Shown here: one piece after another, positions 14,754-29,607 of the stretch
How the letters are laid out: each line of letters starts with the position of its first letter
Numbering within the stretch: the first letter of the stretch is position 1
Assembly (NCBI GenBank): GCA_902500785.1
Contig: CABVRW010000039.1
Location: 1-36,209, forward strand
DNA length: 36,209 nt
Origin: an uncultured Nitrospira sp.
GTDB taxonomy: Bacteria > Nitrospirota > Nitrospiria > Nitrospirales > Nitrospiraceae
Reading direction: 5' to 3'
The notes under the pieces: model-generated
What the model saw: only the letters and a program-made list of their open reading frames with translations
Database searches by the model: none
What the model was told of the DNA's origin: nothing
Position numbers and translations under genes: made by a program

Positions 14754-15815
14754 TCAGAAGTCGAGTTCCACCATCTTGCGATGGAAGCGCGTGATCACGT
14801 TTGGATCGGGCGTCAGCCGGATCTGGGCCTCATCCTTCCCCTTGTAAGACAGGAGGTTGAGCACATGGCGCAAACTTTCCAGTCGCGCGGCTTGCTTGTC
14901 GTTCGCTTTGACGATGATCCAGGGACTGAAGGTCGTATGCGTCTTACTGAGCATTTCTTCTTTGTAGCGGGTGTAAGAGTCCCACAACTCCTGCGCCTTC
15001 TCATCGACCGGGCTGAGCTTCCACTGCTTGAGCGGATTCTGCCGGCGCGCTTCAAATCGACTGGCCTGCTCCTCTTTGGAAATCGAGAACCAAAACTTGA
15101 TGATCGTGACGCCGTCTTCGTACAGCATATGCTCGAATTCCGTCACCTGTTGCAAGAACCGTTGATGTTCTTTCTTGCTGCAAAATCCCATCACCGGTTC
15201 GACCACCGCGCGGTTGTACCAGCTCCGATCGAAGAACACGATTTCACCCTTGTTGGGCAATTGCCGGATATACCGCTGGAAATACCATTGTCCTCGTTCA
15301 TCGTCCGTCGGCTTCGGCAACGCGACCACCCGCATGGACCGGGGATTCAGATGCTCGGTAAATCGTCTGATCGTGCCGCCCTTCCCGGCCGCGTCCCGCC
15401 CTTCGACCAGAATGGCAATACGTTGTCCGTCGGCCTGGACCCAGCGCTGAAGCCGGACCAGCTCGACTTGGAGCTGCCGCAATTCCTGCTCGTACAGCAA
15501 CGTCTTCCGCACCTCTTCCAGATCGATATTCCTGCTCTTGATCAACTGCAGGAGACCCCGGCGCGTGTTGACCCGACGGAGATCGTCTTCGGTCAGGGTT
15601 CGACCCGCCCGACCGATCACTCCAGCCGCCAATTCTCCGTCGGTCGGCGCAACGGATTCGTAACCGTCTCCTTCCCGCGGCACTGCCGTCGGGATGATCT
15701 CTAGCTCATCCGCCTCAAGTTGCCCGTTCGTCTGCGCGACCGGGTCTACCGCTTCTGCTCCTGCGCGATCCTTTCGACTCTTGGCTTTTCCACTCGGTGC
15801 TTCGTCGGCTGCCAT
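14754..15815 (-). CDS. ppk2: Polyphosphate kinase 2
   Basis: PPK2 moves phosphate between polyphosphate and nucleotides (usually making ATP or GTP). The C-terminal two thirds carry Walker A VEGRDAAGKGGT (near 137-148), Walker B FFDRSWYNRA (near 194-203) and the lid region RFEARRQNPLKQWKLSP. An N-terminal extension of about 75 residues is charged and disordered-looking, longer than in short PPK2s. ATG 15815 is preferred, with GGGAG 11 bases upstream; a TTG at 15842 would lie right at the stop of the DsrE gene. PPK2 fits the dormancy-type gene set around it. Confidence 0.92.
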   Translation of the reverse strand: MAADEAPSGKAKSRKDRAGAEAVDPVAQTNGQLEADELEIIPTAVPREGDGYESVAPTDGELAAGVIGRAGRTLTEDDLRRVNTRRGLLQLIKSRNIDLEEVRKTLLYEQELRQLQVELVRLQRWVQADGQRIAILVEGRDAAGKGGTIRRFTEHLNPRSMRVVALPKPTDDERGQWYFQRYIRQLPNKGEIVFFDRSWYNRAVVEPVMGFCSKKEHQRFLQQVTEFEHMLYEDGVTIIKFWFSISKEEQASRFEARRQNPLKQWKLSPVDEKAQELWDSYTRYKEEMLSKTHTTFSPWIIVKANDKQAARLESLRHVLNLLSYKGKDEAQIRLTPDPNVITRFHRKMVELDF

Positions 15816-15842
15816 GCGAGTACCCGCTCCCTTCTTGCTCAA

Positions 15843-16202
15843 TCAGAATGCCACGTTCCGGTCGCGTTCGGCCACGGCCTTGATGTAATCCGGCATCCCC
15901 TTGATCACGGCGCCCGCCACAAGATCGCCCTGCCCGATCTGCCGCGCGACGGCACAAGCCCCGCAGACCCAAATCGGAATGTTGGCGGCTTGCACGGCGG
16001 CCAGCAGTTCTTTCAGCGGCGTCAAGTTCACGCCGACGACATGATCTGCCGAGCCTTTGCGCGCCGACGTCACCGCCTCATTCCACAACCACACCACCAC
16101 ATCGTGCCCCTGTTCCTTCGCTGTTTTCGCCGCCATGAACGGCAAGGTCGCCATCGTAGGGTCATCGGTGCCGCGGCTGCCGGAAATCATAAATGTCGCC
16201 AT
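15843..16202 (-). CDS. DsrE-like protein
   Basis: This 119-residue protein has the DsrE/F fold: MATFMISGSRGTDDPTMATL at the start (strand-loop), KEQGHDVVVWLWNEAV, and a Cys-containing segment IPIWVCGACAVARQIG. DsrE family members carry sulfur on a cysteine in sulfur-transfer chains; many others have no known role. The CGAC cysteines are candidates. GGGAGG five bases before ATG 16202 fixes the start. A 14-bp hairpin sits just upstream. It is near the sulfur oxidation genes, which supports but does not prove a sulfur-transfer function. Confidence 0.82.
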   Translation of the reverse strand: MATFMISGSRGTDDPTMATLPFMAAKTAKEQGHDVVVWLWNEAVTSARKGSADHVVGVNLTPLKELLAAVQAANIPIWVCGACAVARQIGQGDLVAGAVIKGMPDYIKAVAERDRNVAF

Positions 16203-16227
16203 CGAATCCTCCCTGAAGCGTCGTTCG

Positions 16228-16274
16228 TGACACGGATCTCGCAAGCAACTCCGCCCCTCACGAGATCCGTGTCA
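16228..16274. terminator. Strong 14-bp stem-loop between tetraheme cytochrome and dsrE-like gene
   Basis: TGACACGGATCTCG (16228-16241) and CGAGATCCGTGTCA (16261-16274) are perfect inverted arms around a 19-base loop. The hairpin lies 12 bases after the tetraheme stop (16287) and about 25 bases before the next start. There is no T tract on the transcribed side. It may be a Rho-assisted terminator or an RNA hairpin that sets differential expression of the two genes. Confidence 0.65.
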
Positions 16275-16286
16275 TGACTCACCTGT

Positions 16287-17702
16287 TTATTTTGACAAGC
16301 TTCTCACATAGGCAATCAACTGCCACACCTGCTCGTCCGGCAATCCGGCGAATGACATCATCCCGGTTCCCGGCGACCCGTTCTTGATGATCCAGAACAG
16401 TTGTCCGTCCGAGATGTCTTTCATCATCTTGCCGCAAGTGAAATTCCTGGGCGGCGGAACCAACGCCGCGCCCATGAAACCTTGGCCATTTCCCTTGTCG
16501 CCGTGACACATCGCGCAGGCCACGGGCTGAGCGGTTTGTAGAAACAGGGTCTTGCCGGCCTGGATGGCCGCGTCTGAACTCGGCAGCGGATTGGTCTTCG
16601 TCAGAAATTCTTGCGGTGCCTTGGCCGTTTTTCTCGGTTGCGGACAGACGCCTGTCGGTCCGCCGCTGTCGCCCGGAGACGCCTGCGCGGATTCCGGCGC
16701 GCCCTTGAAGGTCGCTTTCAGATAGGCCATCACGTCCGCCACGCCCTGTTGCCCAATGGTCAGTCCCCAATAGGGCATGGTAGGCGATTTTCCAACGGCT
16801 CGGCCGCCGTAATAAATGACGTTATAAAGATAGTCCGTCGGGAGCTTCTCGAACGGAATGTTGGCGTGAATCGCCGGCTTCGGGTTCAGGCCCGATGCGG
16901 CCGGACCATCGCCCTTGCCCGTCGCGCCATGACATTGGGCGCAATATTCCTTGTACACCACCTGGCCACGATCCAGGCTGGTCTGACCGAACGGTTCACT
17001 TTTCCAGGGCTCGTAATAGGGAAAATCATCCCACCCTCTGGTCGCAATGTATCCGGTGACATACCGCAGACCCAATTCGCTCACATCGCCCACGAACTCT
17101 CCGCTGTGCGGCACATAGTCCGGCGGGTTTGAATTAAATCGATGAATCCAATCGGCTTTGAGACGTCTCCCTGCCTCCGCCAACGAGGTGCTTTGCGGGC
17201 CCCCGATGATGTTGTCGCCTTCACGCACTTGATGACAGCCGATACAGGCATGTTCCTTAAAAATTTTCTCGCCGAAGGCCGCCTCTTGTTTGCTGAAGGT
17301 CGTCATATCGATCGCGCCGGATTTCACCTTGGGGTCCGTGAAATCGGTTTCGAGATACTTGGCGATCGATTCCGCATCGGCCTGGGACACGGCCGGATGG
17401 GGTTGCGGCGTTTGCCCCTGGTCCCAACGATAACTCTTCGCATAGAGCGGTTGTTCCTTGCCTGCCAGCCAGCCGACCAGCCATTCATGCTTGAATTTAC
17501 TGCCGGCCCCGATCAAATCGGGCGCTTTCTTTTCCAGACGAGACAAGGGAGCCCCCTCCAGTCGATGGCATCCGGCGCAATTATTCTGCACCATCTCCTT
17601 GGCTCGCCCCTGATCGCTGCCCAAGAGCAGACGCGGGAACGACACCATCCCGAGCACGAATACCAACGCACATCCGATCATCACCGTCCGTCTTCCATCC
17701 AT
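16287..17702 (-). CDS. Tetraheme c-type cytochrome made of fused cytochrome c domains
   Basis: After a signal peptide (to about residue 29) the 471-residue protein has CAGCH (42-46), CIGCH (153-157), CAQCH (254-258) and CAMCH (396-400). The first two domains, with APDLIGAGSKF and DYVPHSGEF, match the diheme protein at 27416. The third is a classic cytochrome c with distal Met in PTMPYWG. The fourth ends FWIIKNGSPGTGMMSF, like the protein at 13026. It is thus a mosaic of domains found as single proteins elsewhere in the window. It follows the sulfite oxidase cytochrome by 38 bases and may receive its electrons. Confidence 0.9.
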   Translation of the reverse strand: MDGRRTVMIGCALVFVLGMVSFPRLLLGSDQGRAKEMVQNNCAGCHRLEGAPLSRLEKKAPDLIGAGSKFKHEWLVGWLAGKEQPLYAKSYRWDQGQTPQPHPAVSQADAESIAKYLETDFTDPKVKSGAIDMTTFSKQEAAFGEKIFKEHACIGCHQVREGDNIIGGPQSTSLAEAGRRLKADWIHRFNSNPPDYVPHSGEFVGDVSELGLRYVTGYIATRGWDDFPYYEPWKSEPFGQTSLDRGQVVYKEYCAQCHGATGKGDGPAASGLNPKPAIHANIPFEKLPTDYLYNVIYYGGRAVGKSPTMPYWGLTIGQQGVADVMAYLKATFKGAPESAQASPGDSGGPTGVCPQPRKTAKAPQEFLTKTNPLPSSDAAIQAGKTLFLQTAQPVACAMCHGDKGNGQGFMGAALVPPPRNFTCGKMMKDISDGQLFWIIKNGSPGTGMMSFAGLPDEQVWQLIAYVRSLSK

Positions 17703-17740
17703 GAGGGACCCCTTTCTTACTCTCGCATCGTGGCGGCTGC

Positions 17741-18457
17741 CTATCGTGAGGCAAGCCAGGCATGAATATCAGCGATCTCCTGATGACTGAGCACTGCGCC
17801 CCAGGCCGGCATCGGCCCGCGCCCGTGAAGCACCGTTTCCCAAAACGCCCCTTCATTTTTGAGGATCCTATTACGCGCAAGTTTCGGCCCGGCACCACCC
17901 GCTGCGCCTTCTCCATGGCAGGCCTGACAATTGTGCGCATACAGCCCCGCTCCCTTCGCGGCCACGCCGGTGAGCGGACCATCGGTCGCCACACCCTGCT
18001 CTCGGGCCGGTTGGGCCATGGCCAATTCATTCTCAATGGAGGGCAACTGATCCGGAGCGCCGGGATGATTCCGCGCCGACAGATACTGCACGAGCAAGGC
18101 CGCTTCATCCTTGGAAAGATCGGCACCCCAATGCACCATCTTCTCCACCGTCGCCGTCCACCGATCACGCGGCAGCCGTTGCTGGGAGATGAGGTCGGTG
18201 GTATGACAGACGGCGCAACGAGCGAGAATCAACGTGGCCGCTTTACGAGCGACGGCGGGTTCAACTGCGGTACGCTCCTCTTCCTGAGCGGCTGTGATCG
18301 CCACCGCAACAAGGATCACCAGCAACACAATGGTGAATGGTGATAACGCTCGCCAGGCAAGGCCGCCGCGACCGAGAGTCCGAGATGGTCGGGGTATGTC
18401 CGTTGAGGGCTTGAGGGACGCGAGAACGACGCGGGATGACGTAGGCCGCATGCTCAT
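17741..18457 (-). CDS. Diheme cytochrome c, probable electron acceptor of the sulfite oxidase
   Basis: The chain has an N-terminal region with one hydrophobic helix (LSPFTIVLLVILVAVAITAA) and two heme motifs, CAVCH and CQACH. The first domain has a helical LPRDRWTATVEKMVHWGADL segment; the second ends GPMPAWGAVLSHQEIADIHAWL with a probable Met ligand. The ATG at 18457 overlaps the sulfite oxidase stop (ATGA, 18454-18457), so the pair is coupled as in SorAB systems, where a cytochrome takes electrons from the molybdenum subunit. The stretch before the helix is about 30 residues, long for a signal anchor. Confidence 0.85.
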   Translation of the reverse strand: MSMRPTSSRVVLASLKPSTDIPRPSRTLGRGGLAWRALSPFTIVLLVILVAVAITAAQEEERTAVEPAVARKAATLILARCAVCHTTDLISQQRLPRDRWTATVEKMVHWGADLSKDEAALLVQYLSARNHPGAPDQLPSIENELAMAQPAREQGVATDGPLTGVAAKGAGLYAHNCQACHGEGAAGGAGPKLARNRILKNEGAFWETVLHGRGPMPAWGAVLSHQEIADIHAWLASR

Positions 18458-19635
18458 GCCGCCACCGTCACAGTCAGGCGATCCCACCCGCTCCAGAGGA
18501 ACCCACCGGGATTCCACGGACTCGTTACCGGCTGTCGCTCACCCCGCGCATCCGTGGCGCGGCAAAGAATGGCTGTGGGTCCGACGGATTTGGCGTTCCA
18601 GATGTATTGCCATTGCCGCCAGGCGTAGGGCTGCTCTTCGCCGACGAACCGGGCCGGTTCCCACGTACGGCCGTCGTCGCAGGACACCTCGACCTGCGTG
18701 ACCGCTACGTCGCCGGCCCAAGCGACACCTTGAATCGTGACCGGTCCCTTCCGTACCGTGTCTCCCTCCGCCGGTGCGGCAATGAGCGACTTGACGAGCA
18801 TCTGTTCGACCGGGACCATGGCGCTCCCCGGCAAGCCGGAAGTCGGTTGAACGGCGGTCTCAGGGATGCGATAGGCCTGCTGCATGTAATACCCGGGCGT
18901 CTCGTCCGCGCGCACGGTGATCTCGGTCAACCACTTCATGCAGGATTCCGCCATCCAGCCGGGCGTAATCACCCGTAGCGGCGCGCCATGCAATAGAGGC
19001 AATGGTCGGCCGTTCATCTCATATGCCAGCAGCGTATCCGGATGGAGAGCCTTGGCGAGCGGAATGCTGCGCGTGAACAGGGGGACCGTCGCCAGAACCG
19101 GACGGTCGGCGCCCTGAAATTGCACGTGCAGCCCTTGCGGTTTCACTCCGGCTTGTTGCAGCACATCACGCAGCCGCACGCCGGTCCATTGCGCATTGCC
19201 GACCGCTCCTCGTTCCCACTGCACGCCGGGGACTTTGGGACGATGGTGCGCGCGTCCGTTTCCGCTGCATTGCAACACGGCCGTGAGCGTAACGGCTTCG
19301 AATTGTTGTAAGTCCTTGAGGCTGACACTCAGCCCTTCTTTGACCAACCCCTTCACCGTCAGCCGCCAGGCATCGGATTGCACCGTCTCGGCTGCGGGCG
19401 GGCCGAAGTGACTCCGAACGAAAAACCGTTCATTGGGCGTCAGCCAGGAGGTAAATTCACGCACGGGCGTTTCTGCGTCGAACGGCCGCGTGACCCGCAC
19501 GGTCAGGGGTCCGGTGCCCAGACTCCCCTCACTTCCGTACGCGGCGTCGACCGTGGGAAACCTTGGACCCACGACGAGGCCGACCCCGATTCCTTGCAGC
19601 AACGTCTTCAACCATGCTCGCCGAGATACCGTCAT
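18454..19635 (-). CDS. Sulfite oxidase family molybdenum enzyme (SorA-like)
   Basis: The 393-residue precursor starts with a twin-arginine type signal (SRRAWLKTLLQGIGVGLVVG). The oxidoreductase molybdopterin-binding domain has the Mo-binding cysteine C123 in LQCSGNGR, the segment LHGAPLRVITPGWMAESCMKW, and a C-terminal Mo-co dimerisation domain (GVAWAGDVAVTQVEVSCDDG, W.P...). This family oxidises sulfite to sulfate in the periplasm; some members act on other sulfur or organic substrates. It overlaps OsmC upstream (ATGA, 19632-19635) and the cytochrome downstream. It is distinct from the SoxC-like protein at 24669. Confidence 0.9.
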   Translation of the reverse strand: MTVSRRAWLKTLLQGIGVGLVVGPRFPTVDAAYGSEGSLGTGPLTVRVTRPFDAETPVREFTSWLTPNERFFVRSHFGPPAAETVQSDAWRLTVKGLVKEGLSVSLKDLQQFEAVTLTAVLQCSGNGRAHHRPKVPGVQWERGAVGNAQWTGVRLRDVLQQAGVKPQGLHVQFQGADRPVLATVPLFTRSIPLAKALHPDTLLAYEMNGRPLPLLHGAPLRVITPGWMAESCMKWLTEITVRADETPGYYMQQAYRIPETAVQPTSGLPGSAMVPVEQMLVKSLIAAPAEGDTVRKGPVTIQGVAWAGDVAVTQVEVSCDDGRTWEPARFVGEEQPYAWRQWQYIWNAKSVGPTAILCRATDARGERQPVTSPWNPGGFLWSGWDRLTVTVAA

Positions 19636-20069
19636 GATTTTCCTTCCGTCAGATCAGGAGCCGTCGCGCCATGACTATGCGGGTTCAAGTCGATCACGAT
19701 GTCCGCAGGGACGATGATCGACTGGTGCACCGTGCAGCCATGCGCCACCTTCAACAGCCGTTCCTTCAGTTCAGCCGTCACCCGATGGGGGAGCCGAATC
19801 GCCAGCAGGATCTGCCCGACTCGATGGGGGCCTTCCGCCATCGTCCATTCCGCTTCCACCTTCAGCCCTTCGCGTGAGATATCGTGACGCGCGCAGAATT
19901 GGCCGACAAAGTACCCTACGCAGCTCGCGACGGAACCGACAAACAACTCCACGGGCGTCATCCCTGCGTCCGCGCCACCCCCATCCTCCGGCTGATCCGT
20001 CACCACCCGATGGCGATCACTGAGGATGTCATACCGCGTTCCCCCCTGGTACGTCACGCTCAGTTTCAT
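19632..20069 (-). CDS. OsmC/Ohr family thiol protein (first copy)
   Basis: OsmC-type proteins reduce organic hydroperoxides or handle persulfides with two cysteines. Both are here: VASCVGYF and HGCTVH. The usual core is seen (GMTPVELFVGSVASCVGYFV, then VEAEWTMAEGPHRVGQI). Length 145 residues is normal. GGAGG five bases before ATG 20069 sets the start. Its stop overlaps the sulfite oxidase start, so it is made together with a sulfur-oxidising enzyme, which suggests persulfide or peroxide protection. Confidence 0.88.
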   Translation of the reverse strand: MKLSVTYQGGTRYDILSDRHRVVTDQPEDGGGADAGMTPVELFVGSVASCVGYFVGQFCARHDISREGLKVEAEWTMAEGPHRVGQILLAIRLPHRVTAELKERLLKVAHGCTVHQSIIVPADIVIDLNPHSHGATAPDLTEGKS

Positions 20070-20082
20070 CTCGACCTCCTCC

Positions 20083-20142
20083 GCTCGTCTTTCATCCCTC
20101 GTGTCGTACAAGGCCCGCGTGGAGAGATGCGCTTCACGCGTT
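20083..20142 (+). repeat. Possible short relative of the dispersed repeat
   Basis: This gap between the TsdA-like and OsmC genes reads TCGTCTTTCATCCCTCG, then GGCCCGCG, then GAGATGCGCTTCACG. The order and spacing resemble the copy at 26060-26173 (TCGTTCGTCTCTCG, GGCCCG, GAGATACGCGTCACG). The match is broken and may be chance. Confidence 0.3.
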
Positions 20143-20987
20143 CAATAGGGCACATCCGCCGGTTTCTCGCCCTTCGGCCAGTCGTGGCCCTTGCCGGGAA
20201 AGTCCGGACGTGGTTGAGAGTTGATATAGGCCGCCACGTCGTAGGCGTCCTGATCCGACAAGGCCCATCCCCTGGTCCGCGGCATATTCGATTTGATGAA
20301 CGAGGCGGCCACCGGAATGCGCGCCATCTCCGCGCCGATGTTGTACGACTGAGGTCCCCACAAGGGGGGCGCCGCCATTGTGCCCTGTCCGTCGGCGCCG
20401 TGACAAAATGCGCAACGGGCAGTGAACACCTTCGTTCCATTCACAACATCAGGCGATTTGGTCGGGTGCAGTCTGGGAATGCCCCTCCAGGCCATCCGAC
20501 TTCCTGAGGGAACATCCTTCGACAGCCACTCGATATAGGCCACGATCGCCCGGAGCTTATGGCTGTCGTGAGGGATCGGCTTGCCGTTCAAGCTGCGTTC
20601 GACACATTCGTTGATGCGGTCGGCCAACGTCACCACCAGCCCCGTTCGTGCACGATATTCCGGATAGGCCCGCGAGAGCCCGACATAGGAGGCTGAATTG
20701 GGATCGAGCCCTGCGTCTAAATGACAATTGGTGCAAGTAAGCCTATTGCCCACATAGGACGAGGCGAACTCTTGGGTATGGACAACTAACTGGTAGCCCA
20801 ACCGGATCTGCTCGCCGCGTCGGCCATCGGGAATAGAATCGGAGGAAGGATGAGTGAAGATCGCATCAAGCCCGTCGGACTCCGTGTGGCTGGTGACGGA
20901 TTGTCCGCCGCTTCGTGAATCCTGCGGACCGGCGCAGCCGCCGGAGAGACCGAGCAGGACTATGACTGCACACAGGCTCTTTCGCAT
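20142..20987 (-). CDS. TsdA-like diheme cytochrome (thiosulfate dehydrogenase / tetrathionate reductase family)
   Basis: The 281-residue protein begins with a lipoprotein signal (lipobox LSGGC, Cys18). Heme 1 motif CTNCH is at 85-89 in NRLTCTNCHLDAG; 39 residues on is DRINECVERSLNGKPI with Cys128. In TsdA of Allochromatium heme 1 has an unusual His/Cys ligation with a cysteine a similar distance away, so Cys128 is the likely ligand. Heme 2 is CAFCH at 192-196. TsdA joins two thiosulfates into tetrathionate, or reverses this, in the periplasm. It is first in the sulfur group, before OsmC and the sulfite oxidase. Start lacks a strong SD sequence. Confidence 0.82.
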   Translation of the reverse strand: MRKSLCAVIVLLGLSGGCAGPQDSRSGGQSVTSHTESDGLDAIFTHPSSDSIPDGRRGEQIRLGYQLVVHTQEFASSYVGNRLTCTNCHLDAGLDPNSASYVGLSRAYPEYRARTGLVVTLADRINECVERSLNGKPIPHDSHKLRAIVAYIEWLSKDVPSGSRMAWRGIPRLHPTKSPDVVNGTKVFTARCAFCHGADGQGTMAAPPLWGPQSYNIGAEMARIPVAASFIKSNMPRTRGWALSDQDAYDVAAYINSQPRPDFPGKGHDWPKGEKPADVPY

Positions 20988-21284
20988 GACGTTAGGCCCG
21001 TAACTGAATGCTCTGTACGATGGCGCCAGTCAGAAGCGGCGCGGCCAATGCCGGTAACCGATTCCATCCCGATCTTGTTGGGGACAAACGCAACAGCTTC
21101 GCGATGCTTGCTGCCGCACTACGCTACACTCCACTGCACAAGGAACGAACGGTCGTCGGCAATGTAGCATTAGTGTCATATTTCATGAAAAGGATTCAGC
21201 GTGTCGACTGCATTCAGCAGGCCTCGTCGCCCTTTTCCCACATGGACGATCCACCAAGGTATCTGTGGATGCGTCGTTTCATGC
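20988..21284. other. Intergenic region upstream of the TsdA-like gene
   Basis: No gene is convincing in these 297 bases. They should hold the promoter of the leftward sulfur genes. I found no clear sigma-70 or sigma-54 site and no strong repeat. Confidence 0.4.
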
Positions 21285-21650
21285 TCAGGACACCACTCGC
21301 GACGGTGCCAACGCCCGGATGTACCGGATCACGTCCATCATCTCCTCGTCCTTCAGGCGGCCCCTCCAAGAGTGCATCGGGCTGAACAAGACACCGTTTG
21401 AAATCGCGATCAGCAACTCAAAATCGGTCCGACCTCGGGACTCCAGCGTGTGAAAATCTTTCGGCTGCACGACGAGATCCTTCGAATCAGGCCCCTGCCC
21501 GTCTCCCATTCGGCCGTGGCAGCTGAGACAATGTGTCTTGTAGAGGGCCTCGCCCGCGTCAGGATTCCCATGAAACTCCTGCGCCGCGATCCAGCTGTTA
21601 CCGGCCACCATACACAAGAGCACCACTGCCGTCGTCAGGTGCTTGACCAT
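21285..21650 (-). CDS. Small periplasmic mono-heme cytochrome c (paralogue of 4154-4516)
   Basis: It has a signal peptide (MVKHLTTAVVLLCMVAGNSWIAAQ) and one heme motif CLSCH. The distal Met is probably in LFSPMHSW. Length 121 residues and the sequence pattern match the protein encoded at 4154 on the other strand, so the two arose by duplication. GGGAGG lies seven bases before the ATG. It is the last gene after the ZIP transporter and DUF3365 gene. Confidence 0.9.
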   Translation of the reverse strand: MVKHLTTAVVLLCMVAGNSWIAAQEFHGNPDAGEALYKTHCLSCHGRMGDGQGPDSKDLVVQPKDFHTLESRGRTDFELLIAISNGVLFSPMHSWRGRLKDEEMMDVIRYIRALAPSRVVS

Positions 21651-21706
21651 CGTGTCCTCCCTCGCTCGAGAAAACTGGTGATCTGCCCATCCTCCTGGTC
21701 ATCACA

Positions 21707-22453
21707 TCAACCGAGGCTCAACTGCAGACCCAGGATCGTCCCGATCCCGGCCAGCATCAGCAAGAATTGCGCGAAGCCCGGATCAGGACCAATGCGTCGG
21801 TGCAACCCTGGCACCAGATCCGCCAGCCCGATATAGATGAAGCTGGCCGCTGCAAGCCCAAGCACCGGGCCCATGATACCTTGCAGACTCCCGAGAGTCG
21901 TATACGCAAGTATCGCACCCGGGATCGTCGCGGCTCCGGACAACAGGTTCCACAGCAAGGCACGCGAGCGGCTGAATCCGCTATCAAGGAGCAGGGCGAA
22001 GTCGCCCACTTCTTGTGGCAGCTCATGTGCAAGTACCGCGATTCCTGTCCCGATCCCAAGCGGGACCGAGGACAGAAACGCCGCCGCGATGACTACCCCA
22101 TCGACAAAGTTATGGAGCGCGTCACCGACGAGAATCAGGGACCCCGTCGTGCCATGCACCTCGCAGGGGGATTCAGCATGGCAATGTCGCCAAATGAGCA
22201 ACCGTTCGAGTACGAAAAAGACCAAGAACCCTGCAAGTAATGCCCTAAGACTGGTCGTAAGCCCGCCTTGCTCGATGGCGCGAGGCAATAGCCCGATCAC
22301 CCCCGCCGCCAGTAGAGTCCCTGTCGCATAACTGACCAGTAAAGGCACCAACCGTTCCCGCACTCGTTTCGGGAACAACAGAAACGCGGCGGCGGCGGAG
22401 ACGGCCCCGAGGCTGCCAAGGAGCGCGAACCCGAGGATCCACCAGAGAACCAT
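21707..22453 (-). CDS. ZIP family divalent metal transporter
   Basis: ZIP proteins bring zinc, iron or manganese into the cytoplasm. The 248-residue chain has about eight helices. The metal sites are in helix 4 (DALHNFVDGVVIAAAF) and helix 5 (LAHELPQEVGDFALLL). A short His/Cys loop (WRHCHAESPCEVHG) lies between helices 3 and 4. It begins five bases after the DUF3365 stop, so it is probably co-transcribed. Confidence 0.92.
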   Translation of the reverse strand: MVLWWILGFALLGSLGAVSAAAAFLLFPKRVRERLVPLLVSYATGTLLAAGVIGLLPRAIEQGGLTTSLRALLAGFLVFFVLERLLIWRHCHAESPCEVHGTTGSLILVGDALHNFVDGVVIAAAFLSSVPLGIGTGIAVLAHELPQEVGDFALLLDSGFSRSRALLWNLLSGAATIPGAILAYTTLGSLQGIMGPVLGLAAASFIYIGLADLVPGLHRRIGPDPGFAQFLLMLAGIGTILGLQLSLG

Positions 22454-22458
22454 GGGAG

Positions 22459-23070
22459 TTAGTGATTCCCACGATCGATCGGCTGTTTGATGCTGACCGC
22501 ACCCCGCAGTTCACCCGCCTTATAGCCGACAGCCGCATCGAATGGATACCGTTGTTTCAACACCGTTCGAATGGCGTCCGGAATCTGCTCGCTCGGCCCA
22601 TGACAGAGCAGGCATTGCGGCTGAACCGCGATCGGCTTCATGAACCGGTAGTACGGCCCACCCGGTTCCGCGACGACTTCGCTATGGACCATGCCGGCGA
22701 ACGCCTCGCCTTTCGCCGACCGCTCGGCGAATTCGGACAGCGCCTGCTGCTCCCAGGCATCCGGCATGCCGAGCAACGGATTGCGCACTCGCGTCCCCAC
22801 ACGAGTCACCCGCCACCCATGCTCTCTGGAAAGCCGGCCGGCAATCTTCGGGGCTAACTCGGCGCAGACCTTGATCGCTTCCATCGGTCCTCCTTTGGTC
22901 ATTTCCTTCTTCATGGCTGCGCCCAACTCATTCAGGAAAGTCGTAGCGACCTCGGAAGCCGCCTTGTCGCGCTCGGCCACCTCGGCCCACGCAGGGATCA
23001 CGGAACATGCAAGGATAACCGCGCAGACGCCCAGAACCGTCCGCATCCTGACCGTATCTTTTATTGTCAT
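22459..23070 (-). CDS. DUF3365 periplasmic heme c protein (first copy)
   Basis: A signal peptide (VLGVCAVILACSVIPAWAEV) precedes a DUF3365 (Tll0287-like) domain with LGAAMKKEMTKGGPMEAIKVC, RVGTRVRNPLLGMPDAWE and a C-terminal heme motif CLLCH at 153-157 (QPQCLLCHGP). Such domains are seen alone or on sensor kinases and are thought to sense redox state or small gases through the heme. GGAAGGAGG lies seven bases before ATG 23070. A related protein is at 26248. Function unknown. Confidence 0.85.
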   Translation of the reverse strand: MTIKDTVRMRTVLGVCAVILACSVIPAWAEVAERDKAASEVATTFLNELGAAMKKEMTKGGPMEAIKVCAELAPKIAGRLSREHGWRVTRVGTRVRNPLLGMPDAWEQQALSEFAERSAKGEAFAGMVHSEVVAEPGGPYYRFMKPIAVQPQCLLCHGPSEQIPDAIRTVLKQRYPFDAAVGYKAGELRGAVSIKQPIDRGNH

Positions 23071-23113
23071 GGCACTTCCTCCTTCCAGCAACCGGATGGG
23101 TAGACCGCACAGG

Positions 23114-23334
23114 TCAATCCAGCCAGATGCCGGTCACGACCCCGAAGGCGAAGCTGAGCGCGAAGATTTTCGTCCACAAGCGCGGCCTCACGGTAGTGCT
23201 CATCGCCCGTCCAAAAGCCGGCGCTGGAAGCAGACCAGCAACAGCGCGAGGCTCATGGTCAGTTGCGGGGAGAGGTAGTGGACGGTCGTTGTGACCTCGG
23301 ATTGCAGCCGATCAGAAAGGAGCGCGTTGGCCAT
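23114..23334 (-). pseudogene. Broken N-terminal fragment of a cytochrome bd-like quinol oxidase subunit I
   Basis: Read on the reverse strand, three successive frames give one CydA-like N terminus. ATG 23334 starts MANALLSDRLQSEV, then VHYLSPQLTMSLALLLV (helix 1). A shift then gives TGDEHYREAA (23210-23181), and a second shift gives RLWTKIFALSFAFGVVTGI (to about 23126). This order matches the start of cytochrome bd subunit I, where helix 2 is normally followed by a MEFQFGTNW-type motif. Here that motif is lost and the frame ends WLD-stop. Two frameshifts and the missing rest (over 300 residues) show a remnant. No ORF of normal length remains. Confidence 0.8.
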
Positions 23335-23375
23335 CTGTCTCTCACGGCGACGTGCTCACCACACCACGCATCGGA

Positions 23376-23972
23376 TCAATGCTGGTGTTGTTGCTCACCT
23401 CCTTGCTTCCCGCCCCCCTGATCGCCCATGCCCCCTCCGTGTCCGCCGCCACCCATGCCACTACGCCCCATGCCGCCCATCCCCCCGTCATGCTGCCCCT
23501 CGCCTGCGCTTTTCATCTTCTCGCGATGGGTGCGATCCTTCTCCCGTTGCTCCGGTGTCAACAAGGCCACGGCCTCCCGTTTCCCTTTGATGGCCGCAAG
23601 CAGCAGCTCCCCTTCAGCTTTTTTTAGTTGATCGACCTTCGTTCGAATCAAGGAGAGGTCGGCCTGTTCCTCCTCCAGCAACGCTTGCAACTCCAGTTGG
23701 GCGATCGTGATCTCAGCCTCCATTCTGGCTTCGGTTCGTTTGCAATCCAGCTGCACGGCTTTGACCTTGCCGATCTGCTCAGACGTCAGACCAAACTCCT
23801 TCGCATGCTTCAGCAAATGCGTGAGATAACGTCCGCACTGCTCTTCTTGTTGACCTTGCATCTGGCCGCGCTTCATCCCCCCATGGCCCCCATCGGCAAA
23901 ACTGAGGCAAGCCGGCGCCACGATCAGGCCGGCGGCGCCGAATACAATCATCATCCATCGTCGCATCATCAT
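23376..23972 (-). CDS. Spy/CpxP-like periplasmic metal-stress protein
   Basis: A signal peptide (MIVFGAAGLIVAPACLSFA) precedes an all-helical LTxxQ domain: GLTSEQIGKVKAVQLDCKRT and, later, LLTPEQREKDR, the two LTxxQ-type turns of the Spy/zinc-resistance family. The tail (about 155-198) is a Gly/Met/His-rich stretch, GGMGGMGRSGMGGGGHGGGM and onward, ending QQHQH, which could bind copper or nickel. These proteins are periplasmic chaperones or metal sensors. SD sequence GGAGGGG lies seven bases before ATG 23972; three ATG codons follow in a row. It precedes the cytochrome bd remnant. Confidence 0.85.
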   Translation of the reverse strand: MMMRRWMMIVFGAAGLIVAPACLSFADGGHGGMKRGQMQGQQEEQCGRYLTHLLKHAKEFGLTSEQIGKVKAVQLDCKRTEARMEAEITIAQLELQALLEEEQADLSLIRTKVDQLKKAEGELLLAAIKGKREAVALLTPEQREKDRTHREKMKSAGEGQHDGGMGGMGRSGMGGGGHGGGMGDQGGGKQGGEQQHQH

Positions 23973-24115
23973 AAATCATCCCCTCCGCCCTGAAACCGAA
24001 ACCTTTGCGCCCATTGGATTCAGTCGGTTCCCCAGCTCTCTCCTGCTATTCGAACGCGGCACCATACATCCTCGTGACACCGGATACGCTGACAACCTAG
24101 ACAATCCGGGTGGAG

Positions 24116-24682
24116 TCAGTTCTTCGGCACGTCGGGCCTGGGATCCGGCACAAATCCATGACGATTCGGCATCTGGATCTTCGGAAGCGATCCGGCATCC
24201 ACGACCACATCCTCGGCAATAATTCCGTTCTGGTGAAGCAGCCATGCCACCACCGAGTACACCTCGTCCGGGGAGAGGCTTTGAGGCGCGGAGAACGGCA
24301 TGGCGCGATGCACGTAGTCATACAGAGTCGTGGCATAGGGCCAATAACTGCCGATGGTTTTCACCGGCTTGGGGCTGCTCAATGTGCCGATGCCCCCCAC
24401 CAAACGATCCATCGGACCTTCCTGTCCATTCGGTCCATGACAGGAAACACAGTGAGCGGCAAAAACCGCTGCGCCCTGCTTGGCGGTTCCGCTGCCCGGC
24501 GGCAATCCCTCCCCCGTCGGGGTGACGTCAATGTTCCACTTCTGCATATCTCGGTCCGTCGCGGCCTGGCCGAATCCATACCCATCCGTGCGGCCGCTCC
24601 GATCGGCCGCCTGACTATTCCACATACCGCCCACGCTCAGCAGGGCCAGTAGCCCCGCCATCATGACGTTACGCGTGAACAT
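24116..24682 (-). CDS. SoxD-like cytochrome c subunit of sulfite/sulfur dehydrogenase
   Basis: After a signal peptide (to about residue 26), the 188-residue protein has one heme motif CVSCH (78-82). The distal Met is in RAMPFSAPQSL, and the end SLPKIQMPNRHGFVPDPRPD is a very typical SoxD-type ending. Its ATG lies 14 bases inside the SoxC-like gene, showing tight coupling. In Sox systems SoxCD oxidises the sulfane sulfur bound to SoxYZ. No SoxYZ, SoxXA or SoxB gene is in the window, so this pair may act directly on sulfite or on another carrier. Confidence 0.85.
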   Translation of the reverse strand: MFTRNVMMAGLLALLSVGGMWNSQAADRSGRTDGYGFGQAATDRDMQKWNIDVTPTGEGLPPGSGTAKQGAAVFAAHCVSCHGPNGQEGPMDRLVGGIGTLSSPKPVKTIGSYWPYATTLYDYVHRAMPFSAPQSLSPDEVYSVVAWLLHQNGIIAEDVVVDAGSLPKIQMPNRHGFVPDPRPDVPKN

Positions 24683-25943
24683 TGGTCACCTGCCCGTCTG
24701 CGGCGATGCGCCAGCTCTGGATTGCGTTATAGTGATAGATAGAGTTCACTCCACGTACCGACACCAATTCCGCACGGGTGGGCTGCCGGTAGCCGGTTTC
24801 ATCTCGACATCGACTCTGCAGAATCACGTCTGTTCCATTCCATCTCCAAGGTAGGCGGAATCGGGTATGGCACTTTGGAAGGACCGGGTCCTGCAAAACG
24901 GCCTCCTGCCAAGACCGTCCCCCGTCGGTACTCACCTCGACCTGCGCGATCCGGCCTCGACCGCTCCAGGCCAATCCATTGATCTCGATCCATCCGGGCT
25001 GTACTCGCTGTCCACCGGAAGGAGACGTGATGACGGATTTGGCCTCCATGACCATCGTAAATTGGCGCGCCGTGCCGTCGGGCATGAGATCCGTATATTG
25101 CGACGTTTCCTCGCGGGTCATGAAGGGCGCCGTGCCGAGCTTGAGTCGACGCAACCATTTGATGCACGTATTGCCTTCCCATCCCGGCACAAGGAGACGC
25201 AGCGGATAGCCCTGCTCGGGACGGAGCGGTTCGCCGTTTTGTGCGTAGCAGATGAGCGCTTCCTCCATCAGCGACGCCAGGGGAAGGCTGCGTGTCATCG
25301 CCGCCGCATCACTGCCTTCGGCCAATACCCAAGACGCCTCGGGTTTCACACCAAGCTCTCCGAGCAGGGTCTTCAGGGCCACGCCCGTCCACTCGCTGGT
25401 ACTCGTGAGGCCGTGGGTCTGTTGCACCGTCTTTCCGGTCGGCGCCCGCCATTCAATGGCGGAATTGCCGGAACATTCGATAAACGCGAGCCGTGAGACG
25501 GAAGGAAAGCGTTTCAAGTCGTCCAGAGTGAAGCTCCATGGCCGTTCGACCAACCCATGAATCATGAGGCGATGCCGTGTCGGATGAATGACGGGCACCC
25601 CGTTGTGGTGTCGTTCGAAATGTAAGGCCGATGGCGTGAGCATGCCCTGCGAGTCTTGCAGGGGCGTCAACGACGCCCACCAGGAGCGGGGAACACGGAC
25701 TGCCTGCTCGAACGGCGAGCGTTGCCCGTAGGCCGTCGGCGCCGCGCCGGGCACGCGCGTCGGGTCATCCGGGACGACCGGCATGGCCGCCTCTTCGGAT
25801 CGCGCTACCGAACGCATCATCAGCGCACCGACCATCCCGACAGTGCCGGCGAGCAGGCGTCGGCGATTCACAGTCAGCGTCTCGAGAGCCTCAGTTTGGG
25901 CACGCGATTCGTTTGGCCCGTCGGGGTGTCCAGACTTCGTCAT
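24669..25943 (-). CDS. SoxC-like molybdenum sulfite/sulfur dehydrogenase
   Basis: This is a 424-residue member of the sulfite oxidase family. A twin-arginine signal (VNRRRLLAGTVGMVGALMM) exports it. The Mo cysteine is C157 in FIECSGNSAIEW. SoxC-like features include THGLTSTSEWTGVAL, PLRLLVPGWEGNTCIKWLRR and the C-terminal domain (GLAWSGRGRIAQVEVSTDGG). ATG 25943 is chosen (GGAGG five bases upstream). It overlaps the SoxD-like gene by 14 bases. It differs clearly from the SorA-like protein at 18454, so the strain keeps two sulfite-oxidase-type enzymes with separate cytochromes. Confidence 0.88.
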   Translation of the reverse strand: MTKSGHPDGPNESRAQTEALETLTVNRRRLLAGTVGMVGALMMRSVARSEEAAMPVVPDDPTRVPGAAPTAYGQRSPFEQAVRVPRSWWASLTPLQDSQGMLTPSALHFERHHNGVPVIHPTRHRLMIHGLVERPWSFTLDDLKRFPSVSRLAFIECSGNSAIEWRAPTGKTVQQTHGLTSTSEWTGVALKTLLGELGVKPEASWVLAEGSDAAAMTRSLPLASLMEEALICYAQNGEPLRPEQGYPLRLLVPGWEGNTCIKWLRRLKLGTAPFMTREETSQYTDLMPDGTARQFTMVMEAKSVITSPSGGQRVQPGWIEINGLAWSGRGRIAQVEVSTDGGRSWQEAVLQDPVLPKCHTRFRLPWRWNGTDVILQSRCRDETGYRQPTRAELVSVRGVNSIYHYNAIQSWRIAADGQVTNVHA

Positions 25944-26247
25944 AGCTTCCTCCTTGAACCGGCGATGGCGCCTCTGTCCACCGCAGTGATCATCCGAACT
26001 GTTGTCGGGACGCATCGACCCGCCGATACCAGGGACTACAAGACTGGCAAACAGGCCATCCTCTTCGTCCGTCGTTCGTCTCTCGTTACGGCCCGGCGGC
26101 AGTCCCTGTCGAGATACGCGTCACGATTCACGGAGGTCGAGCATGCCGGCGGCGAACTATTCCCGCATCTTGCCGGAGAGCGTGGGCTCGATCGCGTCCC
26201 ACATGGCCACTGTCCCCGAGGATTCCCTGATACGCCGAAACCCGCTG
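25944..26247. other. Intergenic region upstream of the SoxC-like gene
   Basis: These 304 bases hold the dispersed repeat copy at 26060-26173 and otherwise no gene. A 71-codon leftward frame across it has no ribosome site and keeps only repeat-derived similarity to the other copy, so I do not count it as a gene. No strong promoter was identified. Confidence 0.5.
26060..26173 (-). repeat. Dispersed repeat, copy 2
   Basis: Read leftward, this aligns with 12414-12531 read rightward. Shared segments in order are GATGCGG, AGTTCG, TGCTCGACCTC, TATCTCG, CTGC, GAGAG and CGAACGA. It lies between the DUF3365 gene and the SoxC-like gene. The two copies have drifted, so this is not a recent duplication. 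Confidence 0.6.
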
Positions 26248-26832
26248 TCACTCGGGCGCGGGAATCGAGATGAGAACCCCGCCCAGCACATCGCGAAGTT
26301 TGTAGTCATGCTTCGAACTGCGCGGGTCGGCGTTATGGCAGGTCACGCACACAGGCGACACCGCCAGATCCGCGTACACGGCCTGGAAATATCGCGCTCC
26401 CCCCTCCGTGACTGCTCCCTTATACGGTTGCTCGGGATGCGCCATGACCGCCTCAAGCGCTTTGCGTTCGAATTCGGTTGCAGGCGCGTTGAGCTTGCTG
26501 ATGGGATTCGAGCTGATCAACCGATATTTCACTTCGACCCCCGTCATCGATGCCAGACGCGACGACTCCTCGACGAATTGGGCCGGAAGCGGGAGTGCGC
26601 TGATCTCGCGCCACTTCTCCGACGATTCAATCACACCCCGCCGCTGCATCCGCTCCACGACATGGACGGTATAAAACGTCCGGTCGGATTCCAGCACGGC
26701 ATGGATATAATCCACCACCGTCTCCAGCGGCACGCTGCCGGCCGATTCCTTGCCCGCAAAGCCGGTTCCCCAGCCAACGGTGACGCACAGCGCAATGCTC
26801 AATCCTCCTGCAAGCCATTTCCTGGACGACAT
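26248..26832 (-). CDS. DUF3365 periplasmic heme c protein (second copy)
   Basis: Signal peptide (LSIALCVTVGWGTGFAG) followed by a DUF3365 domain of 194 residues. It includes a helical start (VDYIHAVLESDRTFYTVHVV) and a single heme motif CVTCH at 162-166 in SPVCVTCHNADP. The end (DYKLRDVLGGVLISIP) corresponds to the AVGYKAGELRGAVSI end of the first copy. It is more divergent from that copy than the two small cytochromes are from each other. A good ribosome site (GGGAGG) precedes it. Probably a heme-based redox or gas-sensing domain without an output module. Confidence 0.82.
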   Translation of the reverse strand: MSSRKWLAGGLSIALCVTVGWGTGFAGKESAGSVPLETVVDYIHAVLESDRTFYTVHVVERMQRRGVIESSEKWREISALPLPAQFVEESSRLASMTGVEVKYRLISSNPISKLNAPATEFERKALEAVMAHPEQPYKGAVTEGGARYFQAVYADLAVSPVCVTCHNADPRSSKHDYKLRDVLGGVLISIPAPE

Positions 26833-27024: not shown

Positions 27025-27396
27025 TTACGGCTTCAGCGACCGTATATACGCGAGCAAATCGGCCAACTGAGCCTCTTCAAAGGCACCTTCGTAGCCGGTC
27101 ATGGCCGTGCCGGGCCGCCCCTCCAGGATAATCTTGCGCAGCTGCGCATCGGTCTTGGCCTGAGTCGACTTGGCGACGAGATTGGCCGGCGGGGGAGTCA
27201 AATAGGCCGCCATATCGCTGTCGCCTTTGCCGGTCGGCCCATGGCAGTTCTGGCAGCTCTCAAGATAAATCTTCTTGCCGACCTCATGGCTCTCCTTGCC
27301 CTGAACACCCCCACTGGTTCCGCTGATCAGGATGTCGGCGGCAATCAGGAGGAACCCTCCCAGCACGACCGTCTTCATTCGATCCGCACAGGCCAT
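27025..27396 (-). CDS. Mono-heme cytochrome c, bc-complex neighbour
   Basis: After a signal peptide (VVLGGFLLIAADILIS) comes a single cytochrome c domain with CQNCH and probable distal Met in GTAMTGYEG. The length is 123 residues from ATG 27396 (GAGGAGG just upstream); ATG 27378 is another possible start. It ends the group Rieske, cytochrome b-c, diheme cytochrome and this gene, so it may carry electrons from the complex to a terminal oxidase. Confidence 0.88.
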   Translation of the reverse strand: MACADRMKTVVLGGFLLIAADILISGTSGGVQGKESHEVGKKIYLESCQNCHGPTGKGDSDMAAYLTPPPANLVAKSTQAKTDAQLRKIILEGRPGTAMTGYEGAFEEAQLADLLAYIRSLKP

Positions 27397-27415
27397 CGCG
27401 TCCTCCTCTCTCGCG

Positions 27416-28105
27416 CTATTTGAAAGTCATCATATACGCCGTGATCGCGTAAATGTCTTCATCCGGCAACGGCGGGTTCGGAATATAGGCTCCGCTGTTC
27501 GGCACGAAATCATTCGGATTCAGATTGAACCGATAGACCCAGTCCGCATTCAATCGTTCAGTGATCTTCAAAAATGAGGTACTCGATGTCCCCCCGGCAT
27601 ATCCTTTCGACGTCTTCGCCGGCGTGAAGTGGCAGTTCTGACATCCATGCTCCCGATACAGCTGTGCGCCTCGGGCCAGTTGCTCCGGCGTCCCCGCTTT
27701 CATCACGCCTTCTGGGATGCGAGCGTCCTTCCGTTTCGCGAGAAACTCCGCCGCAGCCTTCGCCTGATCGGCAGGCAAGGCCAGATGCCGCTTCTTGCGC
27801 TTCGGTTGAAAGTCGTAGCCCACAGGGTAATGTTTGAAGTCGGGATTCTGGAGCCACGCGATCAACCAGTCCTGCTGATACTTATTTCCTGCCCAGATGA
27901 GGTCCGGCGCCTTCTTGGTTTTGCGCGCGGCAGGCGCCCCTTCAATCCGATGACACTGCACACAGGTGGTCTTCACGAGTTGTTCGCCCGGATTCGCCGC
28001 TGTGCCCCTTCCGACGACCCCAAGCACGAGGACCGCCGTCATCGATGCGACGAAGCCAAGCACAATCACAGCTGAACTCACCCGCCTCAGTCGATTCTGC
28101 GCCAT
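27416..28105 (-). CDS. Diheme cytochrome c of the quinol-oxidase group
   Basis: A membrane-anchoring or signal helix (SSAVIVLGFVASMTAVLVLG) is followed by two heme motifs, CVQCH (48-52) and CQNCH (155-159), in 229 residues. Segments such as RIEGAPAARKTKKAPDLIWA and DFVPNSGAYIPNPPLPDEDI match the first half of the tetraheme protein at 16287. It follows the cytochrome b-c fusion gene and starts 19 bases before the next cytochrome, so it is likely a subunit or carrier of the complex. Confidence 0.9.
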   Translation of the reverse strand: MAQNRLRRVSSAVIVLGFVASMTAVLVLGVVGRGTAANPGEQLVKTTCVQCHRIEGAPAARKTKKAPDLIWAGNKYQQDWLIAWLQNPDFKHYPVGYDFQPKRKKRHLALPADQAKAAAEFLAKRKDARIPEGVMKAGTPEQLARGAQLYREHGCQNCHFTPAKTSKGYAGGTSSTSFLKITERLNADWVYRFNLNPNDFVPNSGAYIPNPPLPDEDIYAITAYMMTFK

Positions 28106-28281
28106 CTCCTCTCCTCCTCGTCTCTCTCCTCATTTCGTTACTCCCACACGCAATCCTGGGCCACGCGTGGCATCCTCCGCCGGCCGATCGGGCAGATTCC
28201 GGCAGGAAGAATAGCCTCGCATCATGAACCCGTCCAGGATCCCGGTGCCGATGATCGTGAGCGTTCTCAGGTCAGCCTCCG

Positions 28282-29607
28282 TTAGGTCGCACGCTTCAAA
28301 CTCAGCATGTAGGTCGTCAGGTCATTGAGCTGTTGATCGGTGAGAGGGAATTTCGGCATAAACGATCCCGGCGCCACCGATTGAGGGTCACGGAAATGTT
28401 TGAGATGCCATGCTCGATCGGGCCTCGTGTCCCCGATCGTCGAGAGGTCCGGCGCGACGGCCCCGCCCTCGCCATGGATACGATGGCAGCCGACGCAGCC
28501 AAACTGGGCATAGACCGCCTTGCCTCGCGCCACGGCCGGATCGGTCCTCGGCACCGCGTAGAGCTGCTTGATCGAAATTCCCAACAGGCCGAACACGACG
28601 AGCAAAAACAGCAGGCCACTGCCCAGCGCGACCGGCCGCCGGATGGGGTTCCGTACCGGGTTGCGATCGATGAAGGGCCAGAACAGCATGATCAGGATCA
28701 CGCACAACGGCAGGACCCAGGTTGCCAACGGTTCGAGCGGCCCATGCACATACTTGAGCAGTTCGTAATAGAAGAGAAAATACCATTCAGGCACCGGCAC
28801 GAAGCTGGTATCGGAGGGATCGGCCTTGTCCGTCAAGGGCAAGGGAATACTGAATGCCAGCATGGCGACCACGAGGAACACGGCGGCAATCACCACCGCA
28901 TCCATGTAGACCTGCCGAGGCGCGAAGGTCTCGCTGCCCAGCGATGCCCGATCGTCGGCCCACGGTCCGGCCGGTCCCACCCGCCGCAGTACGAAGAGAT
29001 GCAGGGCGATTCCGCCGACAAGAATCGCCGGCAGAAACAACACATGGATCGCAAAGAAACGAGAGAGCGTGAGCGCCCCCAAGACTTCGCCTCCACGAAG
29101 GACGCGTGAAAAGAAATCTCCGACCAGCGGGATCGTGCCCACCATGTTGATCCCGATCTGCGTCGCCCAATAGGCGGTTTGATCCCAAGGCAGCAAATAG
29201 CCCGTAAACGCGAAAGTCATGACGAGGAGAAACAGCACCACCCCCACCATCCACATGGCTTCGCGCGGGGACTTATACGCGCCGTATAGAAACGTCTGCA
29301 GCATATGGAGGCCGATGGCCACGACCATCGCCGAGGCGCCCCAATGGTGGAGGCCTCGCACGAGCCACCCGAAGGTGATCTCGGTCTCGATGAATCGGAT
29401 GCTGTCGTACGCGTGGTCGGGCGTCGGGGCATAGTAGATCGCGAGGAACATGCCCGTGGCGGCCTGGAGGACAAACAGGAACAGGGTCACGGAGCCGAAG
29501 ACGTAGATCCAACTGGCCCCGCCCGGAATCGGCTCATCGAGCAGCGTGCGCTGAACCGGCTTCAGATTCAGACGGCTGTCGAGCCAATCGTAGAGGCGAG
29601 AAGCCAT
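28282..29607 (-). CDS. Cytochrome b fused to cytochrome c (quinol:cytochrome c oxidoreductase)
   Basis: The 441-residue protein carries a full cytochrome b (N part with HHWGASAMVVAIGLH, C part with VPVPEWYFLFYYELLKYV, the Qo-site PEWY). The heme-ligand His pairs are separated by 13 residues in the first helix pair and 14 in the second, the b6-type spacing. At the C terminus is a cytochrome c domain with CVGCH (371-375) and Met417 in SFMPKFPL. The fusion replaces a separate cytochrome c1. AGGAGA lies near ATG 29607. The Rieske gene is directly upstream. Confidence 0.95.
   Translation of the reverse strand: MASRLYDWLDSRLNLKPVQRTLLDEPIPGGASWIYVFGSVTLFLFVLQAATGMFLAIYYAPTPDHAYDSIRFIETEITFGWLVRGLHHWGASAMVVAIGLHMLQTFLYGAYKSPREAMWMVGVVLFLLVMTFAFTGYLLPWDQTAYWATQIGINMVGTIPLVGDFFSRVLRGGEVLGALTLSRFFAIHVLFLPAILVGGIALHLFVLRRVGPAGPWADDRASLGSETFAPRQVYMDAVVIAAVFLVVAMLAFSIPLPLTDKADPSDTSFVPVPEWYFLFYYELLKYVHGPLEPLATWVLPLCVILIMLFWPFIDRNPVRNPIRRPVALGSGLLFLLVVFGLLGISIKQLYAVPRTDPAVARGKAVYAQFGCVGCHRIHGEGGAVAPDLSTIGDTRPDRAWHLKHFRDPQSVAPGSFMPKFPLTDQQLNDLTTYMLSLKRAT

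Follow-up and report, generated by a model that had tools for sequence, protein, structure and literature searches.

Predicted periplasmic sulfite and thiosulfate enzymes of Nitrospira: a conserved SorAB/TsdA operon and an accessory SoxC-SoxD1 pair as probable entry points for electrons

Introduction

The question raised by contig 39 of a Nitrospira genome (36,209 nucleotides, the whole stretch being referred to here as the window) is what a bacterium of this genus does with two distinct molybdenum (Mo) enzymes of the sulfite oxidase kind, one SorA-like and one SoxC-like, each paired with a cytochrome, and with a TsdA-like thiosulfate dehydrogenase encoded nearby. We put the probability at roughly 0.62 that these genes represent two independent periplasmic systems for the input of electrons from reduced sulfur in a nitrite oxidizer, namely an operon that holds sorAB and tsdA and an accessory SoxC-SoxD1 pair. 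A preliminary description had assigned all of them to a single periplasmic thiosulfate and sulfite module that would feed the cytochrome pool and possibly let a host with another main energy source use reduced sulfur.

The use of sulfite as an alternative electron donor by nitrifiers has already been proposed: a periplasmic sulfite dehydrogenase was suggested to oxidize sulfite in Nitrospina (PMC3578206), and sulfite oxidation was suggested for comammox and nitrite-oxidizing Nitrospira, with sulfite dehydrogenase transcripts in one comammox strain (PMC7078480). On the other hand, a 2025 comparison of the order described SorAB as mostly confined to lineage IV, with no mention of SoxC or tetrathionate (PMC12342949). 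In the literature consulted, mostly without subscription journals, no description was found of a tsdA-osmC-sorAB operon in Nitrospira, nor of SoxCD without SoxYZ as a separate family.

Source genome, samples and criteria

The window belongs to a genome of 3.9 Mb that is 99.6% complete. Among named organisms, the genes closest to its SorA-like gene are those of a Nitrospira metagenome-assembled genome (99%) and of Ca. Nitrospira defluvii (85%), and the genome encodes an NxrA that scores 1576 bits against the solved nitrite oxidoreductase (NXR) of Kuenenia; the host is a Nitrospira close to Ca. N. defluvii that oxidizes nitrite, which fits the expectation of another main energy source. A search of the genome for AMO gave no match, but the positive controls gave none either, so that the absence of AMO is weak evidence.

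Genome-wide absences were inferred from protein-family searches. Distribution was examined in 29 genomes of the genus, 147 of the family and 198 of the Nitrospirota, a SorA-like gene being counted when full-length and above 300 bits, and conservation of the operon in 40 Nitrospira loci with a SorA-like gene, where each neighbour was counted only if the flank sufficed.

Results

An old operon shared by nearly the whole genus

Seven genes, all on the minus strand, are arranged in the direction of transcription as tsdA, osmC, sorA, sorB, a tetraheme cytochrome gene (c4h), dsrE and ppk2, with intergenic gaps of about 70 nt at most (Table 1). The stop of osmC shares an ATGA with the start of sorA, the stop of sorA shares another with the start of sorB, and ppk2 abuts dsrE. 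The joining of the SorA-like gene to that of a diheme cytochrome and the proximity of OsmC and DsrE had been recognised in the preliminary description, and both were confirmed; the osmC-sorA coupling, the contact between ppk2 and dsrE, the four hemes of the c4h product and the fusion within SorB had escaped it.

The arrangement extends well beyond the window. SorB lies 3' of the SorA-like gene in all 38 Nitrospira loci with enough flank, the sorA stop is an ATGA in 35/40, and OsmC precedes sorA within 1 kb in 36/40; TsdA is found at most 3.5 kb away in 29 of 33 loci, while the tetraheme cytochrome, DsrE and PPK2 occupy the same positions in 31/35, 26/34 and 23/33, respectively. Since the SorA-like proteins of these loci range in identity from 99% down to 54%, this gene arrangement is old. 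A full-length SorA-like gene is present in 26 of the 29 genus genomes and in 71 of the 147 family genomes, and a TsdA domain likewise in 26/29 of the genus. Nearly all genomes of the genus have the SorAB/TsdA operon, which is conserved across Nitrospira; the SorAB count of PMC12342949 may or may not have included the present SorA-like gene.

Table 1. Genes of the window discussed in the text.
Feature	Positions	Strand	Remarks
TsdA-like diheme thiosulfate dehydrogenase	20142-20987	-	PF21342; LSGGC motif
OsmC family thiol peroxidase-like protein	19632-20069	-	PF02566 (2.4e-11); both family cysteines kept
SorA-like periplasmic Mo sulfite dehydrogenase	18454-19635	-	Pfam Oxidored_molyb and Mo-co_dimer; twin-arginine-like signal SRRAWLK
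SorB domain fused to a second cytochrome c domain	17741-18457	-	two CxxCH; translationally coupled to SorA
Tetraheme c-type cytochrome (c4h)	16287-17702	-	four CxxCH; three Cytochrom_C stretches
DsrE/DsrF-like protein	15843-16244	-	PF02635 (3.3e-19)
Polyphosphate kinase 2 (PPK2) family, last operon gene	14754-15842	-	identified by reading the translation
SoxC-like Mo enzyme, orphan (SoxYZ-less) clade	24669-26015	-	TIGR04555; ATG at 25943 also possible
SoxD1-like monoheme cytochrome c	24116-24682	-	overlaps soxC by 14 nt; aligns to SoxD heme domain 1
Complex III-like cytochrome b/c genes near the operon	27025-29607 (27416-28105, 27025-27396, 28282-29607)	-	

The enzymes of the operon

The best match of the SorA-like protein in the PDB is SorA itself (2blf, 252 bits), and the equivalents of R55, H57, C104, R109, R202 and Y236 (2blf numbering), active-site residues of SorA, are all kept. 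It has been considered that one or both Mo enzymes act on a non-sulfur substrate such as nitrate or chlorate, given that the fold family contains eukaryotic nitrate reductases, which were seen among the PDB matches of both. However, the SorA-like protein reaches 99.7 bits with nitrate reductase 2bih against the value quoted for SorA, the SoxC-like protein 94 bits with 2bii against 362 bits with SoxC (2xts), and the sulfite-oxidase residues of the former are intact, which makes this alternative very improbable.

The SorB partner is not monoheme: its long frame matches the SorB model NF052246 over residues 81-148 (1.3e-12) and a cytochrome c domain over residues 186-257, the SorB domain thus being present with a second heme domain fused on, and two hemes are found in 48/49 homologues. 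The tetraheme cytochrome encoded downstream is likely an electron acceptor or relay. It resembles a fusion of modules like the two separate cytochromes encoded beside cytochrome b (27416-28105 and 27025-27396), and a cytochrome b gene is found near TsdA in most loci of lineage I.

The TsdA-like identity of the remaining diheme cytochrome, also proposed beforehand, was upheld, its best PDB matches being the TsdA structures 4wqc (190 bits) and 4wq7 (187 bits). All 47 homologues have the Cys axial ligand of heme 1, two CxxCH motifs and the distal Met, and the residues C96, H53, R92, H164 and M209 of TsdA are invariant among them; Asn replaces Lys208 of the Allochromatium enzyme in 47/47, as it does in 4wqc, the best-scoring PDB entry. 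The LSGGC motif indicates that the protein is probably a lipoprotein.

A SoxC-SoxD1 pair outside the operon and probably outside the Sox pathway

The second Mo enzyme passes the TIGR04555 model of SoxC (575.9 bits, cut-off 420), and its gene overlaps that of a SoxD-like cytochrome, which agrees with the preliminary description; the alternative start at 25943 is where the region of that description ends. This cytochrome lacks the second heme domain of SoxD and is therefore not a diheme SoxD. The pair is placed about 4 kb upstream of tsdA, with the cytochrome b/c genes of complex III type farther out. SoxC above the cut-off occurs in 13/29 genus genomes, at varied loci with varied neighbours, and soxCD is accordingly an accessory pair that stands outside the operon. 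The reading of the two Mo enzymes as one system was therefore rejected; the thiosulfate and sulfite function proposed at the outset is consistent with the residues and the operon as well as with the phylogeny and the genome, but the single module was not supported.

In the window the pair is flanked by genes for two Tll0287-like single-heme proteins (22459-23091 and 26248-26832, the latter by similarity only). At five loci of the genus (L119, L124, L132, L133 and L135) soxCD adjoins a bufferin-type MNIO cluster (BufB maturase, HvfC-like and DoxX/HvfX-like proteins, one or two of these genes being uncalled in some), together with a TVP38-like protein, a MerA-like flavoprotein and a protein of 255-281 aa with no NCBIfam match. 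In a neighbouring family (f2; L118, L120 and L121) SoxD1 carries a long C-terminal extension that resembles tetratricopeptide repeats (~660-694 aa).

It had been noted that SoxXA, SoxYZ and SoxB are missing. Genome-wide this holds for SoxY (PF13501, no match) and for SoxA, the sole SoxA/TsdA domain being the TsdA itself, and a complete Sox pathway was thus not found, SoxX and SoxZ not having been searched separately; it holds less simply for SoxB, since a SoxB-like metallophosphatase is encoded on contig 34 (L072:1372-3060), which at 288 bits falls well short of the 550 bits set as the SoxB cut-off. This protein is the strongest SoxB match among the 29 genus genomes. On the searches for SoxY and SoxA, the reading of SoxCD as a piece of a hidden Sox system was rejected. 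The same separation is seen in the phylum sample: of its 198 genomes 25 have SoxC and 21 have SoxY, but none has both. In the genus sample only genome G003 has SoxC and SoxY-like genes, the SoxYZ-like genes being below the cut-offs for true SoxY and true SoxZ and ~45 kb away from its SoxC. SoxB is missing from the region in question (L134:6000-12200), which encodes SoxYZ-like carriers, two near-alike SoxA-like proteins with one heme each and diheme cytochromes. The mirror image has been described in the Nitrospinota class UBA7883, which has SoxABXYZ without SoxCD (PMC10839748).

Orphan SoxC-SoxD1 pairs in other bacteria

Stand-alone soxC genes with a short cytochrome are found on plasmid records of Methylobacterium, Methylosinus, Caballeronia, Paraburkholderia, Pseudomonas, Allomeiothermus and Spirosoma, and also of Paracoccus, where they lie apart from any sox operon; the Allomeiothermus gene sits at the start of its record, the end of which was checked and holds no sox genes. 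Viral and phage collections yielded one further orphan pair only. Conversely, soxC lies inside a sox operon in other records of Paracoccus and in Ruegeria, Rhodobacter, Ciceribacter and Indioceanicola. Among the relatives of the model Sox organism, P. pantotrophus and P. ferrooxidans carry the orphan pair on a plasmid (L136, L155), and P. ferrooxidans has a sox-operon copy of soxC besides it (L141).

In a maximum-likelihood tree of 60 proteins all sox-linked SoxCs fall into one group (support 99/89), and the SoxC of the window is placed among the orphans. The loop that carries the Mo-ligating cysteine reads C-A-A-N in 8/8 sox-linked proteins and C-x-G-N in 48/48 orphans, ECSGN in the window; the third-position Gly of the orphans matches the C-S-G-N loop of SorA. 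Each of the 62 orphan SoxD partners shorter than 300 aa carries a single heme, and those that were aligned correspond to domain 1 of SoxD alone. Sulfonate ABC transporters, LLM monooxygenases or TauD-type dioxygenases adjoin the pair in Methylobacterium radiotolerans and NMS14P, Caballeronia Lep1P3, Paraburkholderia largidicola and a Pseudomonas plasmid, although other orphan pairs have no such neighbours, and a published methanesulfonate cluster of Filomicrobium holds a SoxC-SoxD pair (PMC4433239). Because desulfonation frees sulfite, the position of orphan soxCD beside sulfonate genes points to free sulfite as the most likely substrate, an association of genes rather than proof.

On these grounds we lean slightly towards the view that orphan SoxC-SoxD1 is a separate family of SoxYZ-independent periplasmic sulfite dehydrogenases, at present labelled as Sox pathway, which occurs in Nitrospirota, Proteobacteria, Deinococcota and Bacteroidota and is marked by the C-x-G-N loop and the one-heme partner. 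Genome content, the monoheme SoxD and placement in the tree suggest that the SoxC of the window is not a sulfane dehydrogenase of the Sox cycle. It could still be a true sulfane dehydrogenase that acts on the persulfide of another periplasmic carrier, as its score with the SoxC equivalog model and the retention of SoxC-specific loops (e.g. EETSxYTDLMPDG) would allow; this appears unlikely in view of the absence of SoxY from its own genome and from every SoxC-bearing genome of the phylum sample, the altered Mo-Cys loop, the position outside the sox-linked clade and the sulfonate genes beside orphan soxCD in other organisms.

Discussion

The substrates, the electron route and the role of both systems are predicted here from the genes and their operon, the conserved residues, the phylogeny and the absence of SoxY and SoxA. 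The Mo centre of SorA would convert free sulfite to sulfate and hand two electrons to the SorB heme, from which they would reach the fused second heme domain and then the tetraheme cytochrome. TsdA, probably a lipoprotein, would convert thiosulfate to tetrathionate, possibly reversibly, and feed the same cytochrome c pool, with OsmC probably dealing with peroxides or reactive sulfur that arise on the way. Where present, the accessory SoxC-SoxD1 pair would oxidize free sulfite, not SoxY-bound sulfane, and deliver the electrons to its monoheme D1 subunit. Electrons from sulfite, by way of two alternative Mo enzymes, and from thiosulfate would enter at cytochrome c, where those of nitrite oxidation are also delivered.

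Several observations weigh against this proposal. The SorA-like protein scores 323 bits against the SorA equivalog NF052245, its best of all models, without reaching the cut-off of 600, and it was for this reason filed as SorA-like, not as a strict SorA equivalog. In the window soxCD has no sulfonate genes next to it, and the neighbours of soxCD in Nitrospira are mostly genes unrelated to sulfur. Furthermore, the eight sox-linked references come only from Alphaproteobacteria, the clade and the motif rule having been drawn from these.

A further possibility, to which we would give somewhat less than even odds, is that SorAB, SoxCD, TsdA and OsmC are purely protective: they would clear away toxic sulfite, thiosulfate or reactive species and yield no energy of note. 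The translational coupling of OsmC to SorA argues for such a protective element, and related enzymes of other bacteria are known for sulfite detoxification (PMC6527743). The genome also encodes assimilatory-type NIR_SIR reductases and has no Sox pathway, and its NIR_SIR matches are unlike Dsr, being confined to frames of 841 and 607 aa that are too long for DsrA/DsrB; CCG domains are present, not typed as sHdr. Nevertheless, the several extra cytochrome subunits and heme domains, together with the adjoining complex III genes, exceed the needs of a detoxifier and argue for electron transport. For the host, the benefit of the two proposed electron-input systems may be extra electrons, the removal of toxic sulfite, or both.

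If the proposal is true, nearly all Nitrospira of the genus are equipped with an operon for sulfite and thiosulfate, although SorAB has been reported as largely confined to lineage IV (PMC12342949), and an alternative or protective metabolism, directly testable, can be put forward for these major nitrite oxidizers. The orphan pairs suggest that many genes annotated as soxC encode plain sulfite dehydrogenases; soxC alone would then be no marker of thiosulfate oxidation by the Sox pathway, which would affect many metagenome surveys, and a simple residue rule (C-x-G-N versus CAAN) may part free-sulfite from SoxY-dependent enzymes.

Comparison with known systems

The Nitrospira SorAB shares with that of Starkeya novella (2blf) a Mo domain with all active-site residues, the Mo-co dimerisation domain and a coupled cytochrome gene, and differs from it in its score below the equivalog cut-off, in the extra cytochrome c domain on SorB and in an operon shared with tsdA, osmC, dsrE and ppk2. 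In common with the thiosulfate dehydrogenase/tetrathionate reductase TsdA (4wq7), the TsdA-like protein has two hemes, the Cys ligand of heme 1 and the Met of heme 2, whereas it has Asn for Lys beside this Met, is probably a lipoprotein and has no dedicated TsdB that was recognised. With the sulfane dehydrogenase SoxCD of Paracoccus (2xts) the pair of the window shares the SoxC family model and an overlapping cytochrome gene that matches SoxD domain 1, but it is set apart by the lack of SoxY, SoxA and a sox operon, by the monoheme SoxD, by CSGN in place of CAAN and by its separate clade. Although no sulfonate genes adjoin it, it resembles in build the pairs of methanesulfonate and sulfonate clusters (Filomicrobium, PMC4433239; Methylobacterium plasmids), which likewise consist of a stand-alone soxC and a short monoheme cytochrome.

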